From: Pseudomonadales bacterium
GTDB lineage: Bacteria; Pseudomonadota; Gammaproteobacteria; Pseudomonadales; DC-out160
Reading direction: 5' to 3'
Length of the DNA stretch: 64,000 nucleotides
Assembly: GCA_019090455.1 (NCBI GenBank)
Contig: JAHRWA010000075.1
Span: 1 to 64,000 of the forward strand
The notes beneath the pieces are model-generated. The model had not been told where the DNA came from. It saw only the letters and a program-made list of their open reading frames with translations, and made no database searches. Shown here in pieces: positions 12,391 through 28,723 of the stretch. Positions within the stretch are counted from its first letter, which is position 1, and each line of letters opens with the position of its first letter. The translations under genes and the position numbers were made by a program.

Positions 12391-12404
12391 GTCCCTAATT
12401 TCCA

Positions 12405-12800: not shown

Positions 12801-12827
12801 CTTTAACCGGCACGGAGTTGCCTCCGA

Positions 12828-12850: not shown

Positions 12851-12972
12851 TATTACTATATATCATTGTTTTTTAACCTTTTATACGTTTTTTAAGGATC
12901 AATATTGTTAATGATTGTTACACCGATTATTACACTCAAGCATCTTCTATTTGCCCAGTGAGCGAGTGCAAA

Positions 12973-13049
12973 AGTTTAATAACATACGTATATGTACATT
13001 TAAACTGTGCAAATACAATAATTGTTAAACTTGATAATAGTTTAACAAT
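12973..13049 (+). promoter_or_regulatory. Probable AbiEi operators: two inverted repeats upstream of abiE
   Basis: Two inverted repeats share the same AGTTTAA half-site. The first has AGTTTAA at 12973-12979 and TTAAACT at 13000-13006. The second is an 11-bp perfect pair, ATTGTTAAACT at 13021-13031 and AGTTTAACAAT at 13039-13049, with a 7-base spacer. AbiEi antitoxins are known to repress their own operon by binding inverted repeats upstream of it, so these are likely the operators. The second ends only 17 bp before the abiEi start codon, where it would also block initiation. Confidence 0.7.
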
Positions 13050-13066
13050 ACACTAATTTGTTCACT

Positions 13067-13900: not shown

Positions 13901-14807
13901 TGTTTATCATAATCAGGTTAGTTTGCTCATGCGAACATTGCCTTATGTGGCAGAGGAATCTTGTTTTGCCTTAAAGGGTGGCACAGCGATAAATCTGTTC
14001 ATTCGCAACTTGCCACGTTTGTCAGTTGATATTGATCTTACCTATCTGCCGGTAATGGAGCGAGGACAGTCGCTATTAGATATTGATACCGCATTGAAAA
14101 ATATTGGTAAGCGCATCCGTAAAGCAGACAACAGTATTCATATCACCGAGTCTGCACCACGCTCACAAAACGAAATCACTAAGCTGGTGGTGCGCACAAA
14201 AGAGCGTGTCCAGATCAAAATTGAGGTTACGCCGGTACTGCGGGGCTGCGTGTATGATTCCGTCAATATGGAGGTTTCGCAGAAGACCGAAGACAAGTTC
14301 GGCTTTGCAGAAATTAATGTCCTGTCTTTTGCTGATATTTATGCAGGAAAAATCATGGCTGCTTTTGATCGCCAGCACCCGCGCGATTTATTCGATGTAC
14401 ACCAATTGCTGGAAAATGAAGGCATCACAGATGATCTGCGCACGGCTATCATTGTCTACCTTATCAGCCATGATCATTCGCCTCATTCATTACTGGCACC
14501 CGTATTAAAGGATATATCCCAAGATTATGAGCAAAACTTTGTTGGCATGACAACGGAGGACATAATGCTAGATACACTTCTTGAGACCAGAGAAAAACTC
14601 ATTACCGATGTGGTTGGAAATATGCCCGATAATCATAAGGAGTTTTTGCGTTCTTTTTATCGTCGTAAACCTGATTGGAAATTACTTGGCATTGATGGGG
14701 TAGAAAACTTGCCTGCTGTCAGGTGGAGAGAACTTAACCTTGATAAATCGGGTGACGGTACGTGTGAAGAACTTCTTCGTAAGCTTGAGGCGGTGATCAC
14801 TTCATAA
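13887..14807 (+). CDS. abiEii: AbiEii toxin, nucleotidyltransferase-fold
   Basis: A 306-residue AbiEii/AbiGii family toxin. The polymerase-beta-type nucleotidyltransferase signature is intact: GGTAINLF at residues 31-38, followed by SVDIDL with metal-binding D48 and D50, and later VQIKIEVTPVLRG. The motif YAGKIMAAFDRQHPRDLFDVH (residues about 151-171) is the conserved family segment carrying the proposed catalytic Lys and Asp. The toxin modifies tRNA or similar targets and arrests growth when the antitoxin fails. No frameshift is seen, so the pair looks functional. Confidence 0.9.
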   Translation: MAFSDVYHNQVSLLMRTLPYVAEESCFALKGGTAINLFIRNLPRLSVDIDLTYLPVMERGQSLLDIDTALKNIGKRIRKADNSIHITESAPRSQNEITKLVVRTKERVQIKIEVTPVLRGCVYDSVNMEVSQKTEDKFGFAEINVLSFADIYAGKIMAAFDRQHPRDLFDVHQLLENEGITDDLRTAIIVYLISHDHSPHSLLAPVLKDISQDYEQNFVGMTTEDIMLDTLLETREKLITDVVGNMPDNHKEFLRSFYRRKPDWKLLGIDGVENLPAVRWRELNLDKSGDGTCEELLRKLEAVITS

Positions 14808-14936: not shown

Positions 14937-15123
14937 GGTCGCTTTCCTAATAACATATAAAATCACTGGATTGATTTCTGACTTAAACGAATCGTCTTCC
15001 CGTTTTCTTTTGTAGGCCCTCTAACAACCGTCCTGAGATTCTCAATGTTCGTGTCGTCAGTACCCGCGAAACATAGCTCCAGTATCGCTTTAAAACGCCC
15101 TCACTCTGGCTGCTTACCCTAAC

Positions 15124-15147
15124 ATGTACTATCATGTGGTAGTACAT
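15124..15147 (+). promoter_or_regulatory. Palindromic operator upstream of the UPF0175/PIN toxin-antitoxin pair
   Basis: Perfect 8-bp arms ATGTACTA (15124-15131) and TAGTACAT (15140-15147) with an 8-base spacer lie 22 bp upstream of the antitoxin start. Toxin-antitoxin operons are commonly autorepressed through such a site, so this is a likely operator; the binding protein is inferred. Confidence 0.6.
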
Positions 15148-15169
15148 AACTTGAGGCGAGGCGCTTAGC

Positions 15170-15505
15170 ATGAATACAATGGGTATACGGAATATACGAG
15201 AAAACCCGGGTGAGCTCACTCGATTGGCGGAAGCTGGCCAAATAACGTTGATCACCAATCACAGTACGCCAGTGTCTGTGAATATCCCTTTTACTCAAGA
15301 GCTCTTGGAGCAAGGGGTTCATGTGAATATGGCAGCAAAACTATTTGAAGATGGTGTTTTGACCTTAGCTTCTGCTGCGAAAATTGCTCAAATGCCAATA
15401 GAAACTTTTCTAGAAAAGATATCAATTCTTGGTGTGATCATTGTTGACTATGATGAAGGTGAATTGGATGAAGAGCTAGCATGGTTAAAGGACAAAGGTA
15501 AGTGA
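15170..15505 (+). CDS. UPF0175-family antitoxin with Phd-like N-terminus
   Basis: A 111-residue protein in two parts. Residues 1-45 (MGIRNIRENPGELTRLAEAG, then ITLITNHSTPVSVNIPF) look like a Phd/YefM-type DNA-binding fold. Residues 50-105 (MAAKLFEDGVLTLASAAKIA, then FLEKISILGVIIVDYDEGEL) match the UPF0175 family pattern, a small helix-turn-helix module found next to DUF3368 PIN-domain toxins. It is expected to neutralise the toxin and repress the operon through the palindrome upstream. Its stop overlaps the toxin start by 4 bp, a typical coupled arrangement. Confidence 0.75.
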   Translation: MNTMGIRNIRENPGELTRLAEAGQITLITNHSTPVSVNIPFTQELLEQGVHVNMAAKLFEDGVLTLASAAKIAQMPIETFLEKISILGVIIVDYDEGELDEELAWLKDKGK

Positions 15506-15999
15506 CAACGAAACTTATTATTACTGACGCTGGTCCATTAATCGCTTTGGCAAATGTCGATTTGTTGTCGATTTTCAAAAAATCATCCTTTGAGTTTTGG
15601 GCTCCACAAGCGGTAATAAGAGAAGCCACTGCTGATGGGTCTAAGCCGGGTGCAGCTGCTATTCGTGATGCGATTGGTAGTAATTGGATTCAAGAAAAAA
15701 CTGTCGAGCATGATGATCTCTATTTTTCTCTTAAAAAATTACTTGATGAAGGGGAAGCTGAGGCAATCTCGCTAGCGAATCGGAATTCTACAGCAGTTCT
15801 AATCGATGAAACCCGAGGACGTAAGGTAGCGCAACGAAACAATATTCCAGTCTTAGGAACTGCCGCGCTGTTGATTCATGCTAAAGAGGAAGGGTTTATT
15901 CCAGAGGTTATGCCTATTTTAAATATTCTAAAATTAAATGGTTACAGGCTGTCTTCGGGGTTAATGTTAAAAGTGCAGGAGTTGGCGATCATCGCGTAG
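15502..15999 (+). CDS. DUF3368 PIN-domain toxin (putative ribonuclease)
   Basis: A 165-residue PIN-like protein starting at GTG. Acidic PIN residues are visible in order: D9 in LIITDAGPLIAL, E in LDEGEAEAISLA (near residue 88), and D in VLIDETRGRKVA (near 104), followed by the conserved GTAALLIHAKEEG. Such toxins are Mg-dependent RNases paired with UPF0175 antitoxins. The gene ends 11 bp inside the convergent phoR reading frame, which places its 3' end at the junction of the putative inserted element. Confidence 0.78.
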   Translation: MTTKLIITDAGPLIALANVDLLSIFKKSSFEFWAPQAVIREATADGSKPGAAAIRDAIGSNWIQEKTVEHDDLYFSLKKLLDEGEAEAISLANRNSTAVLIDETRGRKVAQRNNIPVLGTAALLIHAKEEGFIPEVMPILNILKLNGYRLSSGLMLKVQELAIIA

Positions 16000-17302
16000 C
16001 ATTCTGTAAATCCTCACTCCGGAAATGACACGAAAAAGTACTACCCACTCCCAACTCACTTTCAATGGTTAAGCTCGCATGATGCCGAATCAAAATATGC
16101 TTAACGATAGCCAATCCCAAACCCGTACCGCCTGTTTTAACAGACCGGCTTTTATCCGCGCGGTAGAAACGCTCAGTTAATCGCGGCAGATGGATATCGC
16201 TAATACCGATACCTGAATCTCGAACACTCAATACCCCTCCAGTTGGCTCGCTCACCCAGCTCACCCAAATTTCACCATCATCGTCCGTATACTTGATTGC
16301 ATTACTGAGCAGATTGGTAATCACACTTCGAATTTCTCCGGGATTGCCCGTGAGTATGACAGTCTCCGGGCAGACGTTGGTGATCGTTCTATTATCAGTG
16401 CCTACTGCAAAAAGCTCTTCACAAATGTTCTGAGTCAATTTACCCAGATTGATGGCCTCATGAGATTCGGATTCAGTTTCAATTTCTAACTGGGAGAGAG
16501 TCAATAAATCTTTGACCAAACTCTCCATCCGCATTGTTTGACCTAACATTTGTGCAAGCGCTGATTGCCAGTGAGTGGCAGAGAAATCGTTGGCAATCGA
16601 GAAGTCTTGAAACGTTTCAAGATAACCACGTACTACGGTTAAAGGAGTTCTCAATTCATGGGAGACATTGGCAACAAAGTCTTGCCGCATTCGTTCAAGC
16701 TTTATCACATTGGTAACATCGCGGACAAATAACAATTTATCGCGCTTACCAAAGAAGGTAATTCTAATTTGCAAAGTAAGGTAGTCACTCACAGGCGAAG
16801 TGATTTGCAAGTGTTCACCGAACTCTTCCTTGCCTAAATAGGTGGTAAAAAGAGGATCTCGAATTAAATTCACCAGCACTTGATTCTGATCATTGGGATA
16901 CTGCAAACCCAATAACTTTTCGGTTGATTTGTTACTCCATTCTATATGCCCACGTTTATTCAGCATCACTACCCCATCAGGCAAGGAAGAAAACGAGTCG
17001 TGCAAATAATCGATAGTCGCTTTTAACCTGAATGTCTCTTCTTTCTCTCGCCGCCGTAGGTGATATATCCCATCGTAAATCTCGCCCCACACCCCTCTTG
17101 CTTCAGGAGGTTCCTCGGTCGGTTTATCTAACCAATTGCGTATGAGACTCAAATGATAAAGGGTCCGGATAAGATACACAGCCAAACCAATAGAAAGCCC
17201 TATAAAGGGATAGCCAGCAAGATACGACAAACCAAAGAGGCTAAAACATACCACGAGAAATTGAATGACTTCTTGCTTCACAGAATTTGACAAAATAATC
17301 AC
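15989..17302 (-). CDS. phoR: Phosphate regulon sensor histidine kinase PhoR
   Basis: A 437-residue membrane sensor with two N-terminal hydrophobic segments (about residues 12-47), a PAS domain (about 95-200; DSFSSLPDGVVMLNKRGHIE), a HisKA domain with the phosphorylated H215 in FVANVSHELRTPL, and an HATPase domain with NLLSNAIKYT, VRDSGIGIS and GTGLGLAIVKHIL. It controls PhoB according to phosphate supply. phoB lies just upstream (80 bp). The open frame starts at GTG 17302. The last five codons (QNATR) differ from the displaced copy at 12.3 kb and appear to be contributed by inserted DNA; the stop overlaps the convergent toxin gene. Confidence 0.92.
   Translation of the reverse strand: MIILSNSVKQEVIQFLVVCFSLFGLSYLAGYPFIGLSIGLAVYLIRTLYHLSLIRNWLDKPTEEPPEARGVWGEIYDGIYHLRRREKEETFRLKATIDYLHDSFSSLPDGVVMLNKRGHIEWSNKSTEKLLGLQYPNDQNQVLVNLIRDPLFTTYLGKEEFGEHLQITSPVSDYLTLQIRITFFGKRDKLLFVRDVTNVIKLERMRQDFVANVSHELRTPLTVVRGYLETFQDFSIANDFSATHWQSALAQMLGQTMRMESLVKDLLTLSQLEIETESESHEAINLGKLTQNICEELFAVGTDNRTITNVCPETVILTGNPGEIRSVITNLLSNAIKYTDDDGEIWVSWVSEPTGGVLSVRDSGIGISDIHLPRLTERFYRADKSRSVKTGGTGLGLAIVKHILIRHHASLTIESELGVGSTFSCHFRSEDLQNATR
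16007..16100 (-). repeat. phoR 3' end (copy B, within intact gene), direct repeat partner of 12297-12390
   Basis: Right-hand copy of the 94-bp direct repeat (3 mismatches). Together with copy A it brackets about 3.6 kb holding the hsdS tail, the Fic remnant, abiE and the UPF0175/PIN pair, the arrangement expected after integration of an element into a gene 3' end. No integrase gene is present between the copies. Confidence 0.85.
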
Positions 17303-17382
17303 TCTCGCTGATAAAGGGGAAACGCAGTATTAAAGAAAGGGGACATAATATATCGACCTTGATGGTGGGTGAATGCTTTGTC

Positions 17383-18102
17383 TCAACCTCCTTTTTTTAC
17401 ATTAAATCGGTAACCTATACCCCGAATCGTCTCAATGTAACCGCTAGTATCAATCTCAGAAGGAGCCTGTTCTTCAAGGGTTTTGCGTAATCGGCGGATA
17501 TGAACATCCACCGTCCGCTCATCGATATAAACATCACCACCCCATACATTATCGAGAAGTTGCGTCCTCGATAATGCCAAATTCGGACTACGCATAAAAT
17601 ACGATAGCAATTTATATTCAGTAGGCCCCAAGTCAATTGCTTGATCTTCAAGATAAATTTGATGTTCATCCTCATTCACTAACAACGCACCTAACTTAAT
17701 AACGTTATCGCTACTAATACGACGTAGTAAACTCTCTATGCGTACAAGCACCTCCCGAGGCGAAAAGGGTTTCGTAATATAATCATCCGCTCCGTTTTTC
17801 AAGCCCGAGACCAAATCATCTTCCGCCGTCTTTGCCGTCAGCATTATGACAGGAATAGATTTTGTCAGATCATCTCGACGTAATTTACGCAGTATCTCAA
17901 TACCACTCATGGCGGGAAGCATCCAGTCCAGTAATATCAAATCGGGTTTATCGTTATAAATGAGACTAAATGCCTGTTCCCCAGAATCCGCCTCTGTGAC
18001 GCGATATTGAGACATCGACAAAAAGTTTGTCACCATAGCCCGAATAGCAGCCTCATCATCAATAATTAAAATAGTCTTTTGATTCATGTTGCAACATGCC
18101 AT
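17383..18102 (-). CDS. phoB: Phosphate regulon response regulator PhoB
   Basis: A 239-residue OmpR/PhoB-type regulator. The receiver domain (about residues 8-125) has the acidic pair IDDEAA, the phosphorylation Asp in DLILLDWMLPAMSG, and the conserved K in YITKPFSPREVL. The winged-helix DNA-binding domain (about 135-235) has TEYKLLSYFMRSP, RTQLLDNVWG, VDVHIRRLRKTLE and the final IRGIGYRF. It activates phosphate-starvation genes at Pho boxes. ATG codons at 18102 and 18087 are both possible; the second gives the usual MNQKTILIIDDE beginning. phoR follows on the same strand. Confidence 0.94.
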   Translation of the reverse strand: MACCNMNQKTILIIDDEAAIRAMVTNFLSMSQYRVTEADSGEQAFSLIYNDKPDLILLDWMLPAMSGIEILRKLRRDDLTKSIPVIMLTAKTAEDDLVSGLKNGADDYITKPFSPREVLVRIESLLRRISSDNVIKLGALLVNEDEHQIYLEDQAIDLGPTEYKLLSYFMRSPNLALSRTQLLDNVWGGDVYIDERTVDVHIRRLRKTLEEQAPSEIDTSGYIETIRGIGYRFNVKKGG

Positions 18103-18336
18103 CCATTCAAATTCCGCTGTCAGTATCCCTTGCTCAATTACTTTCTCAGCTGAATCCCTGCTTCTAGCAGAATGATATACGATGAAGTGTTCCTATAGAA
18201 CATCAATAATAGAAAATAGAGCATCAATAACAGGAAAAAAGATTATGTGGGTGAGGGTAAGGACGAGAGTGAAAATTATAAATACACGATGACTATCTTG
18301 AAAAAAAGCAGAAACCGTATCCTAATTGACTTGGAT

Positions 18337-19554
18337 CTAGAACAATTCAACAGAATCTGCATCATCATTGTGATCACCAGACTGCATCTGTTCATTACTT
18401 AAATCCCGAACGCGGGTAATCGAACTCATCAAGGTGAGGAAATGCCCCTCCAATGCGTCATTCGTTTGATACAACATTTCCAAAGAATCGAGCGCACCAG
18501 TGGACAGACCTAAGAGATGTTCTTCTTGGTTTTCATTGAGATCCAATGACATGGCTGCTATTTCGAGTTTGCCGGATAAGTCCTGCATTATATTTCGGGA
18601 GTGATTTTGGGTATCCGCTGACAATTGCCTCATCATATCCATAATGGACATGACTTTACCGTGTTGCTCACCAATCAATTCATTCACCATAATAGTACGC
18701 ACTCGCGCCTCCACCACTGGGCCCATTTGACAGATCAGATCCTTGATTCGGCCATACCGAGTAGCGTCTTGCCAGGGCGCGTTACTAATCATAATAACAA
18801 CATGATTTAGTCTCAGCAGTAGTAATCGTTTGTGTTCAATAAAATGCGCATTGGATGCGTGAGCATCGGATAATATTTTTTGTATGGATACACTGACATC
18901 GCTATCGGAAAACACATACGCATCGTGACCGTCGTCGATTTGCAAATACGATTTGACGCCAAGACCGTTGAGCACTTTAAATAAGGTGGCACTCACTTCA
19001 TCATAAGTCACGGCATTACCGAGATTCTCCACTAACTGCATGACATACCCGATTTCCGAGGCTGCAACCATTGCTGATTTCGCCGTATCGGACGCCGATT
19101 TATATTGCTCTTCTAGTTGAACATGCTCAGCGTGAACTTGATAACCTGAAATTAAATTTACTGTGATTTGTTCGGCAGTAAAGGGTGCAAAAAAAATCGA
19201 CTCTACATCCAACTCCCCAAGATGTTTCACCAGCTCTTCTTGTGCAGTCTCTTGTGTAATCACGACCCAATAGGGAGGAACGGAACAGCTGTCTGATGCA
19301 GTTTTTTTAGCCTGAGTTAGTATTTTTGAGGCCATGACAATATCATCTAACAAGATAATGACGATATGAGGGTCTGTCTGTGACATGATATCACTAAGAG
19401 TGACGGTCAATTCTTTTTCGCTCTGCTCAGCAAGTGGCAATTTACGTATATTGACTCGAAATTTATCTAAGGTACCTTCTAATAGACCGGCGTCAGCCGT
19501 GCTGGAAGTTAAGCCCAGCACACCCAGTTCTGATGGATTTACCACTTTAAGCAT
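18337..19554 (-). CDS. Regulator-like protein: degenerate receiver plus GAF-like module and coiled coil
   Basis: A 405-residue cytoplasmic protein I cannot name. Residues 1-150 have the alternating alpha/beta spacing of a response-regulator receiver (PHIVIILLDD, PPYWVVITQE, DVESIFFAPFTAEQI) but no clear phosphorylation site in the usual context. Residues 150-170 form a linker helix. Residues 165-300 look like a GAF-like sensor (VTYDEVSATLFKVLNGLGV, then LLLLRLNHVVIMISNAPW, then YGRIKDLICQMGPVVEARV). Residues 300-400 are helical with an acidic tail. The middle module resembles the N-terminal half of the histidine kinase at 58048. It is probably a signalling adaptor; there is no output domain. 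Confidence 0.6.
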   Translation of the reverse strand: MLKVVNPSELGVLGLTSSTADAGLLEGTLDKFRVNIRKLPLAEQSEKELTVTLSDIMSQTDPHIVIILLDDIVMASKILTQAKKTASDSCSVPPYWVVITQETAQEELVKHLGELDVESIFFAPFTAEQITVNLISGYQVHAEHVQLEEQYKSASDTAKSAMVAASEIGYVMQLVENLGNAVTYDEVSATLFKVLNGLGVKSYLQIDDGHDAYVFSDSDVSVSIQKILSDAHASNAHFIEHKRLLLLRLNHVVIMISNAPWQDATRYGRIKDLICQMGPVVEARVRTIMVNELIGEQHGKVMSIMDMMRQLSADTQNHSRNIMQDLSGKLEIAAMSLDLNENQEEHLLGLSTGALDSLEMLYQTNDALEGHFLTLMSSITRVRDLSNEQMQSGDHNDDADSVELF

Positions 19555-19708
19555 CTCCTTTGCTACAACTCTCCATTAACCAATAGGTAATCCTTCTTAT
19601 CCCTATTGCTATGAGTATAGTCAAACAGCGACAATATTCTCAATGTCTAACAAATAAGAAAGTGTCGCCCAAATATAGCTAATAACGACAAACTACCCGC
19701 CCATTGAT

Positions 19709-20023
19709 TTATTGAGGAGGAGGAGGACCACCACCGCCTAGGCTTGTACCGCCACAGGAATTAACCGCATTATCATCCAATTCACCATAAAAAGTCGGCC
19801 CGATAATGTAAGGGAATTTAGGTGTGGAGCCGTCAGTACTTTCTACCGTGATATGATAGTGATAGCCCAAGTCGTCATGATCATGGCCGTTATGCTCGTC
19901 GAGATACTCTGCACTACTGCCTACCAAACTAGAGTCGTGATAATAATCCTCGAAAAACAAACCACTCGCAGCGCTAACGCTATTACCCGATTTAGGTGTT
20001 TCGGCTAAATAGTGAAGAGTGTT
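19709..20023 (-). pseudogene. C-terminal fragment of a YHYH-domain secreted protein
   Basis: The open frame from 20023 reads NTLHYLAETPKSG, then LFFEDYYHDSSLVGSSAEYL, then the signature DDLGYHYHITVESTDG and FPYIIGPTFYGE, and ends in a Gly/Pro-rich tail GGGGPPPPQ, all as in the C-terminus of YHYH-domain proteins. A stop codon at 20024-20026 and the lack of any signal peptide or upstream domain show that the N-terminal two thirds are missing. The annotatable start (TTG 19960) lies inside the domain, so this is a truncated relic rather than a small gene. An imperfect 16-bp tandem duplication lies beside the break. Confidence 0.65.
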
Positions 20024-20059
20024 TCAGGAAGAATGTGGCGGTATTTTTTCTGTTATTTT

Positions 20060-20091
20060 TAATAATAGCTATCTCTAATAATAGCTATTTC
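20060..20091. repeat. 16-bp tandem repeat, 2 copies
   Basis: TAATAATAGCTATCTC followed by TAATAATAGCTATTTC (one mismatch), 19 bp beyond the 3' end of the FKBP gene and next to the truncated YHYH fragment. Confidence 0.8.
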
Positions 20092-20109
20092 TTATGGCAA
20101 CTAATTAGA

Positions 20110-20583
20110 CTAATCATTAATTCCTATCAATTCCACATCAAAAATCAAGGTTGATCCCGGTGCGATTTTGCCTGCCGCTCTATTGCCATATGCTAGTTTA
20201 CTAGGGATGAAAAAACGGGTTTTATCCCCGACAACCATCAACTGAACGCCTTCGGTCCATCCTCGGATAACTTGGCTCAATCCAAAAGCGATAGGCTGAC
20301 CTCTATCCACTGAACTATCAAACACAGTACCGTCGAGGAGAGTGCCATGATAATGCACTGTCACTCTATCGCGTGCTTTGGGATGAACATCGCCATCGCC
20401 TTGCTTAAGCTCAAGATATTGCAGACCGGAGGCCGTTGTCTTCACCCCCGGCTCCTTGGTATTTTTCTCCAAAAAATCAGCGCCAATTTGGATGTTCTCT
20501 TTCGCATTGCCACTACCAGCAAACACTCGTAATGCAACAAAGGCAATGACAACCACAGCAACAATAGCAATAAAAATCTTCAT
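20110..20583 (-). CDS. Membrane-anchored FKBP-type peptidyl-prolyl cis-trans isomerase
   Basis: A 157-residue protein. Residues 1-22 (MKIFIAIVAVVVIAFVALRV) form an N-terminal membrane anchor or uncleaved signal, then a short helical linker (NIQIGADFLEKN), then an FKBP domain (about 50-155). Conserved FKBP text includes VTVHYHGTLLDGTVFDSS, RGQPIAFGLSQVIRGWTEG, FFIPSKLAYG and GSTLIFDVELIGI. It catalyses proline isomerisation during folding of exported proteins in the periplasm. It stands alone between the lipoprotein gene and the YHYH relic. Confidence 0.93.
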   Translation of the reverse strand: MKIFIAIVAVVVIAFVALRVFAGSGNAKENIQIGADFLEKNTKEPGVKTTASGLQYLELKQGDGDVHPKARDRVTVHYHGTLLDGTVFDSSVDRGQPIAFGLSQVIRGWTEGVQLMVVGDKTRFFIPSKLAYGNRAAGKIAPGSTLIFDVELIGIND

Positions 20584-20680
20584 AGTTTATTCCGAATAAA
20601 GTGAAATACACACGAATGTGCGGACGACAAATCTTATCATAGCCGGTACCCCTGAGATACCGGCAATATGGACGACTCTA

Positions 20681-22228
20681 CTAGTCCAACACAAGATCAA
20701 ATGCACCACTCCAATCTACGCCATTGGGGTATACGCTTTCTAAATAGGTCGCGTTTTCAATTGCTTCGCTTCTCCAATCCTGAGGATCTGTGCCTTGATT
20801 TTGTTCCTGGCCTTCAAAACCATCCTGGAAAACAGCGTTAAGCAGCTCATCACAATTATCGCCGATATTTTCACAAAGCCCTTGGGTAAAATAATCTAAA
20901 TCGAGATCCAAATAGGAAACCATCATATCCAGTGACGGATCTATTTCAGTGCCACCCGTGGCTGGAGTCGTGCGCCCACCTAAGAATTCACTTTCACTAA
21001 TACTTTTTTCTATCCAATCCCAAGGTTGTATTGATTGTTGGTCATCATCAAAGAAATAGATATCAGATTTATCCATCAGATAATCACCTAGATGATTATT
21101 GGATGATATTTCTAGTGGCAGCGCCAAAGAATCTATCTGGGCTATGGCTGCACCTTCACCCATTTGATTCGATACGGCGAATAATGTGACTTCGGGCACT
21201 GCCATCCCATTATCCATGTCACTGTTCACCTCCAACCACTGGCCTTTCGTCTCAATAATACCTTGTGCCTGGAAAACCGTGGTCAACGGATTCACATCCA
21301 GCGCCTTGATCACTTTAATCCGAAAACCGGTGGCAAACTCATGCTCATCATCGAATTCCATAAACATATCCGTCACCCGCTGCGTGGACGATTTGGAAAA
21401 ATCCATCCTCATCTTTATCGGCTCCTCTTCATCCAGATCAGGGTTTATGGCCAACGCATCAACAATAATTTTTCCTGTAAACTCCTCTTCCGAATCCCCA
21501 ATCCAAGTAATGAAAAACTGGGGAGTTGATTCGGTAGTCGGCGGAGTGCTTTGATCAAAGCCGTAATAAAGCTTCATAGTGATCTGATCTAGACTTTGAA
21601 TACCTTCATCAACATCGCCATCGACACTAACATCACTGGAATCTGATTCCGAAAAGAAGATGCTAGTGCTATGAACGCTGTAATGAGTCGGTTCTTCCGG
21701 GTCGTAGAATTCTGATGCTGTATCATTGTCAGCTGCCGTGATCACGCCATTTTTTTCAACAAATTCAGAAAAACTGACTAAAGTGTCACTAATACAGGAC
21801 CAAGAGGCGACGGTAGAAACCATAAACTTCGTCATCTCATACCCGTTCCGCATAAAATCATCATCCTCCGACCCCATAAAGGAGCAAGGTTGATTGCTGG
21901 TTTGAGCGGCTGTCGCAGTAATTTGCGCGCGTTCACCATTAACATTTACCATTTTAGAGGCTTGCACTCGCTTCGACGCGTTCCGAGATACCGATTGCGC
22001 GGCCAATAGGATAGGCTCGCCCCCCGTTAAGCTATCGGGTAAATTGAGATTCAAATTCAGCGCCGAGTATTCACCTCCCTCTTCTCCCGTCGGATTTTCG
22101 TCATCTGAAGCACCACATCCTAGAAGTAATGAGCTACCAAGGAGCGTTACTGCCATGTAAAGAGGTCGCCTATTTACTGGAGTTGAAAATAGTTTATTCA
22201 CCTTTCTATTCACTTTTTGATTCACCAT
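20681..22228 (-). CDS. Hypothetical lipoprotein
   Basis: A 515-residue exported protein with a lipobox: a basic N-region (MVNQKVNRKVNK, NRRPLY), a hydrophobic stretch MAVTLLGSSLLLGC, and the acylated Cys near residue 38, followed by an acidic linker (ASDDENPTGEEGG). The rest is Asp/Glu-rich, beta-rich and contains no family I recognise. It has a few Cys residues (CSFMGSEDD; CENIGDNCDE) that could form disulphides. It is divergent from the M48 protease gene, with about 240 bp between them. Outer-membrane lipoprotein of unknown role. Confidence 0.75.
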   Translation of the reverse strand: MVNQKVNRKVNKLFSTPVNRRPLYMAVTLLGSSLLLGCGASDDENPTGEEGGEYSALNLNLNLPDSLTGGEPILLAAQSVSRNASKRVQASKMVNVNGERAQITATAAQTSNQPCSFMGSEDDDFMRNGYEMTKFMVSTVASWSCISDTLVSFSEFVEKNGVITAADNDTASEFYDPEEPTHYSVHSTSIFFSESDSSDVSVDGDVDEGIQSLDQITMKLYYGFDQSTPPTTESTPQFFITWIGDSEEEFTGKIIVDALAINPDLDEEEPIKMRMDFSKSSTQRVTDMFMEFDDEHEFATGFRIKVIKALDVNPLTTVFQAQGIIETKGQWLEVNSDMDNGMAVPEVTLFAVSNQMGEGAAIAQIDSLALPLEISSNNHLGDYLMDKSDIYFFDDDQQSIQPWDWIEKSISESEFLGGRTTPATGGTEIDPSLDMMVSYLDLDLDYFTQGLCENIGDNCDELLNAVFQDGFEGQEQNQGTDPQDWRSEAIENATYLESVYPNGVDWSGAFDLVLD

Positions 22229-22469
22229 TACAGCCGCCTATCGAGATCGTGTTGCGTTAACTTGGATTTGATTGATTAGATTGTCCTGCACTGATCTATA
22301 GACTCAGACAGTTTGAATATTTGAAAAATAATTCAAACTTCTTAAAATTGGGTGTCTAGAGTAGGTGTAGGCCGATAAAATCAGTAGCACAGGCGACTGT
22401 TTTAGCTATTTCATTAAAAACACAATTATTTTTTCACAACTCAGAATGGTTATAGGCGTCAAAATAAAG

Positions 22470-24377
22470 ATGAATCCCTTTCAATTTATCAACAAGATAC
22501 ATTCCCTTGGGGTCACAATTATCCTTGCTACGTGTCTTATTTCTCAAACCTTCGGTGCAGATTACAGTTCCAACAACAGTTCCAACGACAGCGCCAAATA
22601 CAGCTCAACCCAAGCTCCGCTCAATGCGAACCAGTCTATTCATTACTGGAAGCCTCACGTCATCTCACATAAAGGTGACAAACATGTTGCGCGGGCGCAT
22701 CAAATTTTCGAACGCCTATTACGGGGCTGGGAAGCATCGCGTATTCATCCCGATCTGTATGTGGTGAATTCCACCGCTGGACCCTGGGCCGCCTCCTTGG
22801 CAGATGGCAACATCTTATTAAGTCGTTCCGCCATTGACCTTTGCTTTTCGAAAGGGACTGAACGCGGGCAGGACTTATTGGCTTTTGTACTGGCCCATGA
22901 ATTAGCCCACCAACGTGCCGATGATCTATGGCATCAGAAATTCTTCCGCATGATAGGCAATCAAGCTTCGGACATTCAACAACAATTGAATCACGGTTTA
23001 GCTGACCCTAAACACTCCATCGCACAAGTGGAGAGCATTGAAGCGCAGGCAGATCATGACGGTATTATTATGATGGCAACGGTGGGGTTTGAGCCTGCCC
23101 GTATTGTGGAGGATCAGGATTTTTTCACCCTTTGGGTAGAGAGTTTATGGAAAGCGCCCTGCGAACAGAATTCTGAAGGAGCCTGTAGCCAAGCAAAAAT
23201 CCGTGCACTACGAACGCGAACGCAATTGAGAGAGCTGATCCAACATGCCACGGTATACGAACTCGGTGTGCAAGCGATGGTTGCACAACAATTCGAATTA
23301 GCACGAGAATACTTTATTGGGTTTGGAAAACACTTTCCTGGACATGTGGTTCATACCGCTATTGCTTTAACGTATTTAATGCCCGCCATTGAGCTTGATC
23401 GTTCCATTTCTCAATTGATGCAAAAACCTCAATTATATTATCCGCTTTACTTAGCGGCATCTCCGCCCTTGGAGAACATCACGGAACGCTCATCTGAAAA
23501 ACGAGGATTACGGTTGCAAGCACAACAACAGAAGCGCAACCGCTTAGTTAAAAAATCACAAGAATATCTCAACAAAGCCATTCAACTGGCACCTGACAGA
23601 ACGGAATCACACTTGATGCTAGCCAGCAGCTATCTGATGTTGGACAACATCCCCATGGCACGAGGCATTATTCAAGGAAATTATGAGCCTGAATTTGGCA
23701 GCGATAATGCCTCGGCATTAGCACTGGCTTTGATTGAGATACGGGAGGAAAAATATAAAATGGCGGCATCACATTTGATCAAATTGCAAAACAAGTCACT
23801 CACATCTGATCAACCACTGCTAGAGTATGCGGCTGTCGCTAACCTGGCCAATGTCACGGCTCAGCTTGAAGGGGCCGAAGCTGCCGAAGCCATATGGCTG
23901 CAATCGGCCTCACTTCAACAGCACCGTGGTAATTCCATGGCTTTTCAATTATCACTTTCACAGTTATCTACGAGACAGTTATCCACGACACGACCCTCCC
24001 CAGCACACCAGCAGCCGGCGCAAATGGAAGGCATGCGGGTGGGGGATGTGTTAGACCCTCGAATTCTGGAAATGGATAAAGTCGAAGTCTCAACACTATG
24101 GCTACAGGGAGACCCCCTACAGCGGTTACGCTTAGACAATGGCATTAGCATCATCGTTGGCCAAAAAAACCGGGTTGTCGCAATATGGCAAGAGTCCCTG
24201 GATGAAGCTACTATCTTCGGACTCAATATGGGTGACGATGCATCCCGAATATCAAAAGTGCTGGGGTTACCGAATAGGACTATCCCGTTTAGCGCCGGGG
24301 AGTATCTCGCTTTTGATGATATCGGGTTGGCATTAAAAGTGGATCATCAGCAGATTCATGGCTGGTTTCTTTACTAG
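22470..24377 (+). CDS. Secreted M48-family zinc metalloprotease with TPR-like C-terminus
   Basis: About 635 residues. The start at 22470 gives a standard signal peptide (MNPFQFINKIHSLGVTIILA, cleavage near TFGA); an ATG at 22446 is in frame but adds 8 residues before it. The zinc site is HELAH (H143, E144, H147), with the second-helix acidic ligand in VESIEAQADHDG about 45 residues later. The C-terminal half is helical, with repeat-like units (LNKAIQLAPDRTESHLMLAS), as in periplasmic BepA-like proteases that act on outer-membrane proteins. It is the first gene of the plus-strand cluster leading into the sigma/anti-sigma/caspase genes; 92 bp separate it from the sigma-like gene. Confidence 0.82.
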   Translation: MNPFQFINKIHSLGVTIILATCLISQTFGADYSSNNSSNDSAKYSSTQAPLNANQSIHYWKPHVISHKGDKHVARAHQIFERLLRGWEASRIHPDLYVVNSTAGPWAASLADGNILLSRSAIDLCFSKGTERGQDLLAFVLAHELAHQRADDLWHQKFFRMIGNQASDIQQQLNHGLADPKHSIAQVESIEAQADHDGIIMMATVGFEPARIVEDQDFFTLWVESLWKAPCEQNSEGACSQAKIRALRTRTQLRELIQHATVYELGVQAMVAQQFELAREYFIGFGKHFPGHVVHTAIALTYLMPAIELDRSISQLMQKPQLYYPLYLAASPPLENITERSSEKRGLRLQAQQQKRNRLVKKSQEYLNKAIQLAPDRTESHLMLASSYLMLDNIPMARGIIQGNYEPEFGSDNASALALALIEIREEKYKMAASHLIKLQNKSLTSDQPLLEYAAVANLANVTAQLEGAEAAEAIWLQSASLQQHRGNSMAFQLSLSQLSTRQLSTTRPSPAHQQPAQMEGMRVGDVLDPRILEMDKVEVSTLWLQGDPLQRLRLDNGISIIVGQKNRVVAIWQESLDEATIFGLNMGDDASRISKVLGLPNRTIPFSAGEYLAFDDIGLALKVDHQQIHGWFLY

Positions 24378-24469
24378 ACAACACTTTTTACCATCAGCGA
24401 CAAAACTAATAGATTTTTGTAGATGAGCAAAGCAAAACAAAACAAACAAGGAAAACAAAGCCTCAATCC

Positions 24470-25393
24470 ATGACAAAGAATCAAGCCAAGGCAAAGGACA
24501 CCGCAGAATTTTGGGTCGCCGTCGTGGAGCGATCATCCTTGGGGGACAAGGACGCACGAGCTGAGATTGTTCGGAGCGCAGATCCTATGATCCAATTTCA
24601 AACGGGGAAGTTCTGTCGACGTTTTTGTCATACCAATTGCTTCCAAACTAACTGCACACTATCGCCACCTCAAGCTAAGCTCAGTAAAAACAAGCCACTT
24701 TGCGAATGGGGTAACGCCAGTTACGGCTGGATGCTGGATCAATTAACCTCTGAAAAACGCCTGGCAAACTACCAAGGCAACTCACCGTTGCCACATTATT
24801 TTTTTACCATTGTTAATTCATTGCCATTTTATGAACGCTGGAAAAACTGGCGCTTTGGAAGGCGTATCTACGTACCCACTTATATTGAACGTCTCTCTGA
24901 TATCGCCAGCAAGATATTTTTCGGACTACAAAAAGGTGACGCTATCGAACTGATGGCGAAAAATTGCAACCGCGATGTCCTAGAAGTGAAAAAAGTCGCC
25001 CATGAAATCATCGTTCTCCTCACGCAAAAAAAACGTCTCTACCTGCTAGACCAGCCCACCACCGTCTCTCTGACACAGAGTCAATCCAGCAGCGACGACG
25101 CGGAGTCCGATGACAGTCAAATAGCAGTGCCCGTATCCGATAGAACACCGGAACTGTCGCAACAAATTCAATCGGTGAAAAAAGTCTGGCCGCAGTTATC
25201 CCCGGTGGAACAATATATTCTCGAAGCCTTAGTAATTGAAGAACAAGATGTCACTGATGTATTGCATGCTCTAGCGGAACTGGATTTGACCATAAAGCCC
25301 GGCGTTGCCGCCAAGGACACCAATCCACAACAACTATACTATTTTAAGCGCAAGTGTATTGCTAAGTTAGCGCAACTCGTAGAAGAGCAATAA
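24470..25393 (+). CDS. Sigma-factor-like protein with N-terminal cysteine cluster
   Basis: A 307-residue protein resembling RNA polymerase sigma-like proteins encoded beside CHAT/caspase operons. Residues 100-180 (PHYFFTIVNSLPFYERWKNW, FGRRIYVPTYIERL) take the place of sigma region 2. Residues 225-305 (VWPQLSPVEQYILEALVIEE, then YYFKRKCIAKLAQLVEE) look like a region-4-type helix-turn-helix. Residues 49-62 hold four cysteines spaced CX3CX3CX4C, with a fifth at C78, a possible metal or Fe-S site. An anti-sigma-like zinc-finger membrane protein is encoded next, which supports the sigma role. No hit can be run here; sigma identity is inference from pattern and context. Confidence 0.55.
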   Translation: MTKNQAKAKDTAEFWVAVVERSSLGDKDARAEIVRSADPMIQFQTGKFCRRFCHTNCFQTNCTLSPPQAKLSKNKPLCEWGNASYGWMLDQLTSEKRLANYQGNSPLPHYFFTIVNSLPFYERWKNWRFGRRIYVPTYIERLSDIASKIFFGLQKGDAIELMAKNCNRDVLEVKKVAHEIIVLLTQKKRLYLLDQPTTVSLTQSQSSSDDAESDDSQIAVPVSDRTPELSQQIQSVKKVWPQLSPVEQYILEALVIEEQDVTDVLHALAELDLTIKPGVAAKDTNPQQLYYFKRKCIAKLAQLVEEQ

Positions 25394-25424
25394 GGTTAGG
25401 ATAACGATAGAATTCTGATAGTGA

Positions 25425-25454
25425 GATTTAAGATACTGGGATTTAAGATACGGG
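25425..25454. repeat. 15-bp tandem repeat, 2 copies
   Basis: GATTTAAGATACTGG followed by GATTTAAGATACGGG (one mismatch), in the gap between the sigma-like and anti-sigma-like genes. Confidence 0.8.
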
Positions 25455-25566
25455 GAAAAATAGAACTTTATTTTCAACAAATCTTTCAGTCTGTGTCTGT
25501 ATTAACCCTAACGTTAGATACAGCCCCAATTTAGAAGTTAAATAGAACCGAAAAAGAAGACGGACC

Positions 25567-26406
25567 ATGCCTCACCCACAAGCAGAGCAGTTACTCGCGT
25601 ATGCCGAAACGCCAGAAGCCGATGAATTCCACACGATACGGGATCACCTCCTCACCTGTCAGATATGCCGTATTGCAATCGAACGGGGGGTGACATTGAC
25701 CTCTCAATTGAAAGCGGTTGGTCATGACATGATAAGCGATGAGGGTAAGACTACAGCAGACTTAGACCTCAAAGCATCGTTGCACCAGTTAACTCATGAA
25801 TCGGCTATGCAACGGGAACTTTCCAACAAACAGCTATCCCACACACAATCCAGCTCGAAACTCACTAAGCGAAACACGTTAACAGAAATCCTAAATATCG
25901 GGCTTGGATGGTTAACGCAATCCCGCCCCATATGGGCTACCGCATCGGTTTCTTGTCTGCTACTCATCATCCCTCTTATGCTTAGCGATCAATTTTTCAA
26001 TCAGCAAGGTCACAGCACAATCGACGCCGTTCAGTTTATCTCCTATCAGGACTCCACCGATATCATCCTAACCGATCCCGAACAACCGCGAGTGGGCCTT
26101 GGCTTTTTCCATCAGGCAGAAGATCGGGTGGGTACTTTTACAGGTCTTGAGATTAATGCGTTGGATAGCCAAACTCTGGATATTACCTGGCCACCGGTAC
26201 TTGAGGCACAGGAATATGAGATCACTATATTTAGTATGGAGTACGGTGCTCGAAAGGCGATTCAAACTGTAACGAGTGAAACGAATCATGTTAGCCTTTC
26301 GCGAGTCGACCTCCACACAAATCGCCGATACGAGTGGGAGCTGTCAGGGCCGACGAAAACTAATCATCATTTCAAAACCAGTGGCGGCTTTATCATAAAG
26401 GATTAA
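25567..26406 (+). CDS. Zinc-finger anti-sigma-like membrane protein with periplasmic Fn3-like domain
   Basis: A 279-residue protein. The N-terminus has HTIRDHLLTCQIC (H27, C31, C34), the HxxxCxxC core of zf-HC2 anti-sigma domains. A single membrane segment lies at about residues 117-140 (ATASVSCLLLIIPLMLSD). The periplasmic part ends in a beta-sandwich-like region (LDSQTLDITWPPVLEAQEYE, then HTNRRYEWELSGP) with fibronectin type III spacing. It would hold the sigma-like protein at the membrane and sense the envelope. It is preceded by a 173-bp gap after the sigma-like gene and followed by the caspase gene after 3 bp, so caspase expression is coupled to it. Confidence 0.68.
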   Translation: MPHPQAEQLLAYAETPEADEFHTIRDHLLTCQICRIAIERGVTLTSQLKAVGHDMISDEGKTTADLDLKASLHQLTHESAMQRELSNKQLSHTQSSSKLTKRNTLTEILNIGLGWLTQSRPIWATASVSCLLLIIPLMLSDQFFNQQGHSTIDAVQFISYQDSTDIILTDPEQPRVGLGFFHQAEDRVGTFTGLEINALDSQTLDITWPPVLEAQEYEITIFSMEYGARKAIQTVTSETNHVSLSRVDLHTNRRYEWELSGPTKTNHHFKTSGGFIIKD

Positions 26407-26409
26407 CAG

Positions 26410-28101
26410 GTGAAATTAGAAACCAAACAACGTAGCTCAAAATCACCCGTAGACATGAAACTTATCTCTATCCTATTGAGTTTTATCTTGGTTCTCATAA
26501 CCTATCCTCTCACTACCTATGCATCCCCGTCGTTTGCAGATAGTTCAAAACAAAGTCGTGGCTTATCTATAAAACCAAAAATCACATCCCTAGCCGCCCT
26601 CAATAGTGGGCAATATCGGGCATTAATTATAGGTAACGATCGTTACGCCCAAAATAACAATAATGTTTGGAAACCTCTCAAAACAGCGGTCAAAGATGCG
26701 AATGCAGTGGCCTCTATCTTACGCCAGGAGTATGGCTTTAAAGATATCAACGTCCTCACCAATGCCACCCGTAAAGAGATATTACTCGCGCTGCAAAGTT
26801 TATCAAAAAGAGTTATGCGTAATGACAGTGTACTGGTCTACTACGCAGGTCATGGATTTCTCGATGACGATTCTAATAAGGGCTATTGGATTCCAGTTGA
26901 TGCCAAAGGCACAGACCACACCACCTATGTACGAAATTCAACGGTTCGTGATGAGGTCTCGTTAATCGCATCCCGCAGCCAACACACCTTATTAATCTCC
27001 GACTCCTGCTTTAGTGGCAGCCTCTTGCGTGGAGACACGCGAGGCATACAAATTCAGGAAAAAAATGAACGCTACTATGACAAAGTGTCGAAAAAGAAAA
27101 GCGTTCAAATTCTCACGGCTGGCGGCATCGAATACGTGGATGACAATTATCAACAATCAGGCCACTCCCCCTTTAGCTACTTCCTACTCAATGAATTGGA
27201 TACTAACGAACAACCTCGAATCACCTTATCTGAACTGGCATCCAACGTGGAGAAAGCCGTCGCCAATAATTCCGATCAGATACCAGAAAGTGGAGTGCTC
27301 TACGGTGCCGGTGATGAGCTGGGAGAATTTGTCTTTGTGAAAGTAAAATTAAACGTCGAAGTAGAAGGCGTGCCCAAAGATCGTGTAAAAGTGCTAGTCG
27401 AGCTAGACACAGGCAATACTGGAAAATCTATCACTACGATAAAAAAGAATTCAAATGATCTTAAGTTATTAATTGGCGGGCAACTTAACTTGTTAAGTTT
27501 TGAGGGCAATAATAACTCGAGTACCGGCACTCAATTTGAAGGGAATGGCCAAGGACTAGAACTCAAACTGGAGTTACAAACGGGCCGCTGGTATGCCGGA
27601 CTTAACCTGCTGGGTACAAACTTCGATTTCGATGACGGCTCACCGAGTAGGGAACCCAGTTCAGGCGCTACGCCAAACACAGAAAACGTCCAAATAGAAC
27701 GAGGCGAAATTAGCTTTATAGCGGGATATAATTTTTGGCCTCAAGTGTCTCTCTTTTTAGGCACAACATTCTATAGTCATGAATGGCAGGATCAAGACCA
27801 CAAGTTAGATTACAGTGGCCTCGAGTTTGGTATTTCTGGATTCCACTCTTTGAATGATCAATGGCGTTTATACGGATCATTCGCGTTAATACCGCTCACG
27901 ATCAAAATCGAAGACGAGGAAGTCGGTGACAGTGGCGGCAGCTCGATCACCATAGGTGCTATCTATCAAATTAATCCCAACACCCAATTGAACATTGCGA
28001 TCGAAGGTCAGAATCAAACGAACGAGTTCGACAATGGTGTAGAGCAAACACACCGAATTGGCGGATTGGTGCTGGGCATTAGTCATCGGTTTTTATTGTA
28101 A
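26410..28101 (+). CDS. Secreted caspase-family (C14-like) protease fused to a predicted outer-membrane beta-barrel
   Basis: A 563-residue protein. GTG 26410 has AAGGA upstream; an in-frame ATG at codon 16 begins the hydrophobic signal (MKLISILLSFILVLITYPL). Residues 68-300 are a caspase/metacaspase p20-like domain: ALIIGNDRYA, then PLKTAVKDANAVASIL, catalytic H148 in VYYAGHGF and catalytic C200 in LLISDSCFSGS. Residues 330-563 form alternating amphipathic strands (YAGLNLLGTNFDF, IERGEISFIAGYNFW, FLGTTFYSHEW, LYGSFALIPL, ITIGAIYQI) ending in SHRFLL, as in an 8-stranded outer-membrane barrel. The protease domain would face the periplasm. It lies in a cluster with sigma, anti-sigma and DUF4384 genes. 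The caspase fold is firm; the barrel is my inference. Confidence 0.85.
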   Translation: MKLETKQRSSKSPVDMKLISILLSFILVLITYPLTTYASPSFADSSKQSRGLSIKPKITSLAALNSGQYRALIIGNDRYAQNNNNVWKPLKTAVKDANAVASILRQEYGFKDINVLTNATRKEILLALQSLSKRVMRNDSVLVYYAGHGFLDDDSNKGYWIPVDAKGTDHTTYVRNSTVRDEVSLIASRSQHTLLISDSCFSGSLLRGDTRGIQIQEKNERYYDKVSKKKSVQILTAGGIEYVDDNYQQSGHSPFSYFLLNELDTNEQPRITLSELASNVEKAVANNSDQIPESGVLYGAGDELGEFVFVKVKLNVEVEGVPKDRVKVLVELDTGNTGKSITTIKKNSNDLKLLIGGQLNLLSFEGNNNSSTGTQFEGNGQGLELKLELQTGRWYAGLNLLGTNFDFDDGSPSREPSSGATPNTENVQIERGEISFIAGYNFWPQVSLFLGTTFYSHEWQDQDHKLDYSGLEFGISGFHSLNDQWRLYGSFALIPLTIKIEDEEVGDSGGSSITIGAIYQINPNTQLNIAIEGQNQTNEFDNGVEQTHRIGGLVLGISHRFLL

Positions 28102-28118
28102 GCGGCTTTTATTGTTAC
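28087..28118. repeat. 16-bp imperfect tandem duplication spanning the caspase stop codon
   Basis: CGGTTTTTATTGTAAG (28087-28102) includes the TAA stop and is followed by CGGCTTTTATTGTTAC. Confidence 0.65.
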
Positions 28119-28204
28119 CGATTCTTATTTATTCAAATCGGGTTCACGAAAACGACAGCGATATGGGTCTAGTGAAATTGAATTTACACTGCGGAGAAAA
28201 ATAG

Positions 28205-28723
28205 TTGTTTACGCTCAATAGAAGATTTACCCTGTCTTTGCTTCAACTTTGCTATTGGGCTGCGCTCTTTCTCGCTAGTGATAGCGCGATGGGCGATGGA
28301 CTTACAAAAGATAAAAAATTAGAAGTAGGCATAACCACTCACCTAGGCGACAAGCAACAATTTCAACAAGGCGACAGATTAACGCTGCTCATCACACTTT
28401 CCGATAATGCTTATTTAGTTTTGATTTACAAAGACGCGACCAATAAACTAGAGCAGATATACCCTAATCGTTGGTCGGCACAAACGGTTTTTCCAGCAGG
28501 CTATTTTCAGCCTTTCCCATCGACCACAAACCCTTTTGAATTTATTGTTAGCGAGCCGTACGGGCAGGAAGAGGTTTGGTTGGTTGCTTCAAGAAAGCCT
28601 TTTTCAGAGTTGTTTTTTAAAGATATTAAAAAACTGCATCACAGCAGCGATGGATCAGACCCACCATTGATTAACCAAAACACCATGGGATTCTCTCGAG
28701 TGACCATTGAGACTTATCCTTAA
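28205..28723 (+). CDS. Secreted DUF4384 protein
   Basis: A 172-residue protein starting at TTG with GGAG 8 bases upstream. A signal peptide (RRFTLSLLQLCYWAALFLAS, cleavage near AMG) precedes a DUF4384 domain: FQQGDRLTLLITLSDNAYLV, then KLEQIYPNRWS, then PFEFIVSEPYGQEEVWLVAS. DUF4384 modules accompany caspase and serine/threonine kinase genes in many bacteria and probably bind ligands or partners in the periplasm. It is the last gene of the cluster, 103 bp after the caspase gene. Confidence 0.78.
   Translation: MFTLNRRFTLSLLQLCYWAALFLASDSAMGDGLTKDKKLEVGITTHLGDKQQFQQGDRLTLLITLSDNAYLVLIYKDATNKLEQIYPNRWSAQTVFPAGYFQPFPSTTNPFEFIVSEPYGQEEVWLVASRKPFSELFFKDIKKLHHSSDGSDPPLINQNTMGFSRVTIETYP

Follow-up and report, generated by a model that had tools for sequence, protein, structure and literature searches.

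A caspase-containing envelope locus of Gammaproteobacteria with a predicted sigma/anti-sigma switch

The subject of this report is a gene cluster in a 64,000-nucleotide stretch of DNA from a Pseudomonadales bacterium (assembly GCA_019090455.1, contig JAHRWA010000075.1, positions 1 to 64,000), referred to as the window. Its plus strand encodes, in order, a secreted M48 metalloprotease with a tetratricopeptide repeat (TPR) region, a sigma-like protein (SIG), an anti-sigma-like membrane protein (ASIG), a caspase fused to an outer-membrane beta-barrel, and a secreted DUF4384 protein, and a lipoprotein gene (LIPO) diverges from M48. Computation establishes the gene set and its order, the conservation of the catalytic residues of the proteases, the placement of a promoter-like motif, TTCAAA-N16-GTCT, and the scarcity of good copies of that motif elsewhere. 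The locus is, with good probability, a self-contained and autoregulated envelope module run by the SIG/ASIG pair, which appears from these genomic patterns to be a dedicated switch with the locus itself as its main output.

Conservation of the gene neighbourhood

Because SIG alone served as bait for collecting public loci, the genes that flank it provide an independent test of association. A search of the public genome collection yielded 43 loci (L084-L126), whose neighbourhoods were read with a profile for each gene, the order being recounted over all 43 with contig ends included. The common order is a divergent LIPO opposite M48-TPR, SIG, the zf-HC2-type ASIG, caspase, outer-membrane barrel and DUF4384. 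In 39 of the 43 loci SIG is followed by ASIG or fused to it; of the four exceptions, L088 leaves 44 bp of room for it and L101 leaves 1.1 kb, the others being L100 and L124. An M48 gene precedes SIG in the same orientation in 34 loci (as a fragment in L115), LIPO is divergent and upstream of M48 in 25, and the run SIG-ASIG-caspase-barrel-DUF4384 is uninterrupted in 26, 24 of which have M48 ahead. The original prediction treated the five plus-strand genes as one system, and all five are open at the positions given below; most related loci keep them together, and the opposite outcome, in which they are rarely neighbours, was not seen. The five-gene set proved too small, however, since the divergent LIPO gene (20681-22228, minus strand) belongs to it as well. 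Likewise, caspase and barrel form one gene in the window, as had been claimed, but are usually separate in relatives: of the 27 public loci that carry both, 26 have two genes and L114 alone has the fusion.

The distribution of SIG is patchy. It was found in three of 95 relatives, the window's own genome counted, and, at E<=0.01, in 12 of the 369 genomes searched from the class, or 11 once the match in G212 (E=0.0033, with three internal stops) was discarded as noise. In a phylum sample it was present in one of 398 genomes, the window's own, and no relative was found in plasmid or phage collections. By title the loci derive mostly from uncultured Gammaproteobacteria, four being titled only Proteobacteria, and one each is assigned to Desulfosarcinaceae, Manganitrophaceae and Nitrospira by the title of a metagenome-assembled genome only. 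One locus (L124) belongs to the Olavius Gamma 3 symbiont, its SIG match being limited to residues 18-144. The single cultured strain with a SIG locus is Reinekea forsetii (L094), where the locus is complete; to judge by their translations, the genes downstream of it (14993-20700) encode Fic, DUF927-like, YgjP/SprT-like and restriction-associated proteins. A SIG tree built from 40 rows has 10 starred branches among its 37 inner ones; its resolution is poor, and little can be read from it about transfer.

The partner genes largely track SIG among the class genomes. The M48 profile matches 12 of the 369 at E<=1e-20; all nine that reach E<1e-100 are SIG-positive, the three weaker matches (G157, G168, G404) fall in SIG-negative genomes, and the SIG-positive G271 and G342 give no M48 match at E<=1e-20. 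The LIPO profile finds 10 class genomes at E<=1e-10, eight of them SIG-positive and two (G145, G157) SIG-negative. G157 also holds a remnant-like locus (L226, contig C95) with a C-terminal M48 fragment, a DUF4384 gene and a partial LIPO, and with no SIG, ASIG, caspase or motif.

A promoter-like motif and its predicted regulon

Motif discovery used counts of word pairs upstream of M48 and LIPO, with five shuffles of these sequences as control. TCAAA and GTCT form an asymmetric pair 16 bp apart in 27 of 33 M48 and 21 of 27 LIPO upstream regions, and no word pair rose above 4 in the five shuffles. Exact copies of TTCAAA-N16-GTCT number 73 in the 602,065 bp of loci and window, against 1.15 expected for uniform bases, and 16 bp alone is enriched as a spacer, every other length from 8 to 25 bp giving 0-4 matches. 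Sixty-nine of the 73 point at M48 (26), ASIG (23) or LIPO (20); the remaining four lie in L089, L119 (two) and L121, and three of them head variant or split units, as judged from translations and gene order. Within one mismatch the motif precedes LIPO in 24/27 cases, M48 in 30/33 and ASIG in 35/40, and it is absent upstream of SIG (0/42), caspase (0/35), barrel (0/27) and DUF4384 (0/29); shuffled M48 upstream regions gave 11/640.

In the window, exact copies point at LIPO (22300-22325, minus strand, matrix score 33.9) and at M48 (22332-22357, plus strand, 22.5), and a copy with one mismatch, TTCAAC-N16-GTCT, points at ASIG (25473-25498, plus strand). These positions suggest three transcription units, namely LIPO, M48-SIG and ASIG-caspase(-barrel)-DUF4384. 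The idea of a single operon was dropped because ASIG has its own motif upstream.

The motif also appears to travel with SIG: seven regions around LIPO or M48 relatives away from SIG (27,630 bp; four from SIG-negative and three from SIG-positive genomes) hold no copy within one mismatch. In the window's genome there are 18 exact matches, against 12 for the reversed pattern, and among these exact sites the matrix, which was built from other loci, exceeds 20 at the locus pair only; the next-best site scores 17.4, and no open frame of at least 80 codons starts within 260 bp of it. A stricter pattern matched eight times in four other genomes, six times within the locus, against zero matches for the control; it missed all the sites of Reinekea. 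On the counts from the window's genome, a broad envelope-stress regulon, which had been entertained, was dropped. Since only the locus sites score well there, the switch looks local and self-activating.

Certain observations at the DNA level weigh against this reading. Four loci with SIG (L115, L122, L123, L126) have no motif before ASIG even within two mismatches, the SIG proteins of L122, L123 and L126 being among the most diverged. A sequence that resembles a sigma70 promoter (TTGAAA, TAAAAT) also overlaps the region of the M48 motif, but in a generic sigma70 scan of the window such matches were not in excess (11, with 12.3 in shuffles).

The sigma-like protein

SIG (24470-25393, plus strand) is about 300 residues long and has an extra helical part between its sigma2- and sigma4-like parts, together with a stretch in which four cysteines (C49, C53, C62, C78) are invariant in 40/40 members. 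It is nearly invisible to standard searches. Pfam, NCBIfam and PADLOC found no sigma domain in the five window proteins, and SIG is not among the 12 genes of the window's genome that match Sigma70_r2. Across the family, the NCBIfam sigma70-ECF model (ECF, extracytoplasmic function) is the one matched by most members (12/40, best E 0.0056).

Profile comparisons gave a weak signal. Against 17 RpoH and 14 ECF proteins, which remained from 30 and 29 loci after a filter on length and frame, hhalign of the SIG profile gave 49% and 2%, respectively; the middle part carries the signal, with 56% to RpoH and 18% to ECF. When SIG was compared with the sigma factors of its own genome, an RpoH/FliA-like pair reached 77% and the ECF set 8%, controls remaining at or below 1.0%. 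An AlphaFold2 model built from 40 rows is nearly all helical (pLDDT, the per-residue confidence, 83.9; pTM, the predicted TM-score, 0.48), with helices at 137-193 between the outer parts and a low-confidence stretch at 196-224. Foldseek returned 172 PDB matches for the model at E<=10, the best at E=1.4e-3, and the best 50 of the 172 are all sigma factors or RNA polymerase-sigma complexes by title. For residues 225-307, superposition on SigL region 4 gave an rmsd (root-mean-square deviation) of 2.1 A over 69 residues (Z 9.2), which is support and not proof, because Z lies below the ~13 advised for helical bundles.

Several of these results nevertheless tell against a sigma assignment. Pfam Sigma70_r2 and r4_2 each match one member in 40 (E 0.027 and 0.051), among 16 similarly weak families, and two unrelated NCBIfam families reach lower E-values in single members than sigma70-ECF does. 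The N- and C-terminal parts of the profile gave at most 2.3% and 0.7%, with unrelated profiles at up to 2.4%. No Foldseek match attained E<=0.001, the query TM-scores were 0.16-0.25, and these weak values and the pTM of 0.48 leave the domain arrangement uncertain. Taken together, SIG appears to be a highly diverged sigma-70-type factor, the fold of its predicted model resembling that of sigma factors. The sigma-like call of the original prediction thus gains support from 12 of 40 relatives, from the predicted fold and from the motif, but finds no Pfam sigma match in the window protein itself.

From the placement of the motif we infer that SIG reads TTCAAA-N16-GTCT. Because sequence ties SIG to sigma factors only weakly, another explanation may be considered: the motif would belong to some other sigma factor or to an activator, and SIG would be a DNA-binding regulator of another type. 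A PDB sequence search with the SIG profile found only short helix-turn-helix stretches at weak E-values, mostly of LuxR-type chains (best E=0.0071). That explanation must however accommodate a directional two-box motif with a fixed spacer at unit heads, which is lacking beside the LIPO and M48 relatives away from SIG, as well as the sigma folds that fill the top of the structure matches and the fusion of SIG to a zf-HC2 anti-sigma part described below, and it is judged highly improbable.

The anti-sigma-like protein

ASIG (25567-26406, plus strand) has an HxxxCxxC motif, one hydrophobic helix and an Fn3-like C-terminal part. The HxxxCxxC residues are present in 37/40 members, the window's included, and exactly one strongly hydrophobic segment occurs in all 38 members of at least 180 residues, so that from its residues and its single transmembrane helix ASIG has the features of a zinc-type membrane anti-sigma factor (zinc-associated anti-sigma, ZAS, or zf-HC2). 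Pfam recognizes zf-HC2 in 16 of 35 members (best 1.1e-6), and fn3 models match two each. A PDB search with the ASIG profile gave ChrR as best match (E=0.0018), RslA (3hug_B) at 0.043, and Fn3-type chains among others. The claims of a zf-HC2 anti-sigma and of an Fn3-like periplasmic part are therefore borne out through relatives, residues and profile matches, but not by Pfam in the window protein itself, which matches neither zf-HC2 nor fn3. A further difficulty for the proposed pairing is that three ASIG proteins (L091, L098, L111) have no HCC residues, while their SIG partners keep all four cysteines.

A putative inhibition of SIG by ASIG is suggested by their adjacency in 39 of 43 loci and by L122, in which SIG and the zf-HC2/transmembrane part of ASIG make up one open reading frame (ORF). 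With SIG, the conserved neighbourhoods and the motif considered jointly, the regulatory half of the original prediction, a membrane anti-sigma that holds a sigma factor which switches on the caspase and its partners, is well supported, if by inference.

The output proteins

The M48, caspase, barrel and DUF4384 proteins all have signal-peptide-like starts in translation, and LIPO carries a lipobox cysteine in 26/26 members, along with four further conserved cysteines; it matches no Pfam family, its profile relatives lying beside M48. The metalloprotease of the window (22470-24377, plus strand), with its HELAH motif, scores 20.3 bits for Pfam M48, exactly the cut-off. Its HExxH residues and downstream glutamate (H143, E144, H147, E191) are each kept in 34/34 members, and the profile matches TPR; among the matches listed in the PDB (60 of 82) most are TPR proteins and none is an M48 protease. 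BepA-type enzymes are periplasmic M48-TPR proteases, which the secreted M48 with its TPR region resembles, differing from them in being sigma-linked.

The fused gene (26410-28101, plus strand) begins with a GTG 3 bp after the ASIG stop, the gap being as originally reported, and an alternative ATG start lies at 26458. Its signal-peptide-like start and caspase domain (26410-27384) match Peptidase_C14 at E=8.7e-23, and the catalytic dyad, His148 and Cys200, is conserved in 35/35 members. Caspase rows of the alignment are 57-63% identical to the window in the caspase part (47% over the whole length for the fused L114 row). From their conserved catalytic residues, M48 and caspase are both presumably active. 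The barrel part (27385-28101), a separate ORF in most relatives, matches OMP_b-brl below the cut-off (E=0.0024), but is predicted with confidence as ten long strands (pLDDT 89.8, pTM 0.82), so that the barrel claim is backed by fold and not by Pfam. For modelling, alignment A8 was used in place of the caspase-plus-barrel alignment A7, in which barrel rows lay partly on caspase columns. Foldseek likens the barrel to omptin- and OpcA-type barrels (OpcA TM 0.60/0.63), a likeness of fold only. Both ends of an even-stranded outer-membrane barrel are expected to face the periplasm, so with ten strands a caspase fused to the barrel should sit at the periplasmic face of that membrane. The secreted DUF4384 protein (28205-28723, plus strand) is matched by Pfam at E=8.6e-18; for metalloprotease, C14 caspase and DUF4384 protein alike, the family first named is the one that Pfam returns. 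A terminator-like stem at 28064-28084, close to the 3' end of the caspase gene, may leave DUF4384 only partly coupled to the preceding genes in the window.

Three C14 genes occur altogether in the window's genome. The second (in L004, G000:C54, region 8077-14405) has Sel1-type repeats and a lipoprotein-like start, and by translation its neighbours are a Ser/Thr kinase, a PP2C phosphatase and an FHA protein. The third (in L005, G000:C2, region 9207-11930) is lipoprotein-like and lies near a divergent secreted protein, the C-terminal part of which looks DUF4384-like in translation, possibly a second caspase-DUF4384 pairing.

Proposed mechanism and purpose

A sequence of events can be proposed for the module. 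ASIG, with its one transmembrane helix and Fn3-like periplasmic sensor, would hold SIG at the inner membrane until an envelope signal disables it and SIG is freed. SIG would then direct RNA polymerase to TTCAAA-N16-GTCT at three places, ahead of LIPO, of M48-SIG and of ASIG-caspase(-barrel)-DUF4384, and the rise in SIG would provide positive and the rise in ASIG negative feedback. The periplasm and outer membrane would be filled with the lipoprotein, the M48-TPR metalloprotease, the DUF4384 protein and the caspase, the last tethered to, or paired with, the ten-stranded barrel. Most likely, the module would clear away or process envelope proteins that are damaged or foreign. Its purpose is thus probably envelope protection or damage control, a preference that stems from outputs which look extracytoplasmic and from PADLOC, in which the five window proteins gave only a match to a generic caspase model and none to any particular toxin or defence system.

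That generic match bears on a second purpose, programmed cell death or abortive defence, in which, upon phage infection or heavy damage, the switch would turn the periplasmic caspase and metalloprotease against the envelope of their own cell. The retained active-site residues of both proteases, a positive feedback suited to an all-or-none response, the patchy distribution in the class and the Fic- and restriction-like genes that by translation adjoin the Reinekea locus are all in keeping with it. However, secretion sets the caspase here apart from cytoplasmic bacterial caspase effectors, SIG relatives are missing from the plasmid and phage collections, and PADLOC matched one of the five proteins, to the model 'caspase' (8.2e-14), covering profile positions 5-130 of 453. 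Cell death is accordingly regarded as improbable, and envelope protection is preferred.

The position of the proteases relative to the switch admits an addition that is compatible with the module as proposed, namely that the caspase, M48 or both cut the periplasmic part of ASIG and so trigger or reinforce the release of SIG. In most loci no gene separates ASIG from the caspase gene downstream, and SIG-ASIG stay with a caspase even when it is of another subfamily (L116 = L040, L126 = L041). On the other hand, host proteases of the DegS/RseP type could cut the anti-sigma instead, and L117 and L123 show no caspase after ASIG, though only about 1 kb of contig remains in each. A precedent exists in Csx29, which cuts Csx30 (PMC10028731). 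Such a role for the proteases is a tentative proposal and rather unlikely. Similarly doubtful is a bolder combination, in which SIG would be the first member of a new sigma-factor family, marked by a Cys4 insert for zinc binding or redox sensing, and the proteases would at the same time form a closed loop in the periplasm: envelope damage would activate caspase or M48, ASIG would be cut, and the released SIG would raise the same proteases, making a bistable switch that sits outside the cytoplasm.

Variant loci

Judged by gene content, the departures from the common order are those of a modular cassette. In L116 and L126 the caspase that accompanies SIG-ASIG is nearer to the Pfam C14 consensus (6.6e-39 and 2.6e-39; the contigs are those of L040 and L041); L041/L126, from the window's genus and its nearest relative, combines a SIG that has a long insertion with ASIG and this other caspase, and has no motif. 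L119 has a divergent DUF4384-M48-caspase unit, its caspase bearing an extra C-terminal part that is FGE-sulfatase-like in translation, and in L089 an Omp85 gene (1.8e-7) takes the place of LIPO, with the motif ahead of it. Less easily accommodated by a SIG/ASIG-run module are L100 and L101, which consist of LIPO-M48-SIG with the M48 motif and have no ASIG or caspase, L101 leaving only 1.1 kb of room for them; in L075/L100 (6300-12300) the downstream gene is presumably glycyl-tRNA synthetase-like.

Related arrangements without SIG also exist. In G392 (L229, G392:C3, 204-3820) an M48-TPR paralogue lies directly after a canonical ECF sigma gene (Pfam Sigma70_r2 2.1e-20) and a zf-HC2-like gene (0.0046, below the cut-off), so that here at least, by gene order, an ordinary sigma factor holds the position of SIG. 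In G168 the M48 paralogue follows a 361-residue gene and, near the contig end, a 115-residue frame with a sub-threshold match to sigma region 4 (0.0004), for which HTH_10 scores better.

Relation to known systems and significance

The organization resembles that of ECF sigma/ZAS pairs (SigL-RslA, RpoE-ChrR) and of sigmaE-RseA, in which a sigma gene is followed by that of a one-helix HxxxCxxC anti-sigma and an autoregulated two-box promoter is found, the latter a predicted feature in the present case. It differs from these systems in the roughly 300-residue SIG, with its predicted extra helical part, Cys4 stretch and near invisibility to sigma hidden Markov models (HMMs), and in a predicted regulon that is mainly the locus itself.

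Links between caspases and sigma factors have been reported before. Sigma-70 genes were described in 2012 in metacaspase operons of Myxococcus, Anaeromyxobacter, Haliangium, Sorangium, Ralstonia and Fibrobacter (PMC3501461), a caspase homologue being encoded with a sigma factor as here; the section on these operons names no anti-sigma, M48, barrel, DUF4384 or promoter, and on this description the operons are set apart from the present locus. In type III-E CRISPR, cleavage of Csx30 by Csx29 relieves the inhibition of CASP-sigma (PMC10028731), and there too a caspase-fold protease stands beside a sigma factor and its inhibitor. That system works through an RNA-guided complex, whereas the protease here has a signal-peptide-like start, and no CRISPR model matched the five window proteins in Pfam or PADLOC. 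Cutting of ASIG by caspase or M48 would close a loop much as Csx29-Csx30 does, an analogy that may well not hold. The EACC1/EACC2 systems likewise place caspase genes near ECF sigma genes (PMC8195603); the EACC1-type NCBIfam model matches the window caspase below its cut-off (1.8e-21, 76.6 bits against 140), and in Pfam none of the five proteins matched EACC or TRADD-N. A link between DUF4384 and caspases is known in alphaproteobacteria and cyanobacteria (PMC6426788, PMC8283722). Caspase-sigma operons have thus been known since 2012 and EACC-ECF associations came later. The gene set, SIG and the motif appear new: in agreement, as to the gene set, with the original prediction, no published description of them was found by title or abstract, subscription literature being mostly outside the coverage of the search.

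SIG points to a putative sigma factor family overlooked by standard HMMs. Bacterial caspase homologues are common, and to our knowledge their triggers and substrates are mostly unknown. For the caspase described here, a regulator and a promoter can be predicted and a list of partners given, in a locus shared by uncultured Gammaproteobacteria and a cultured species, Reinekea forsetii, and the trigger of an extracytoplasmic bacterial caspase would therefore be directly testable.

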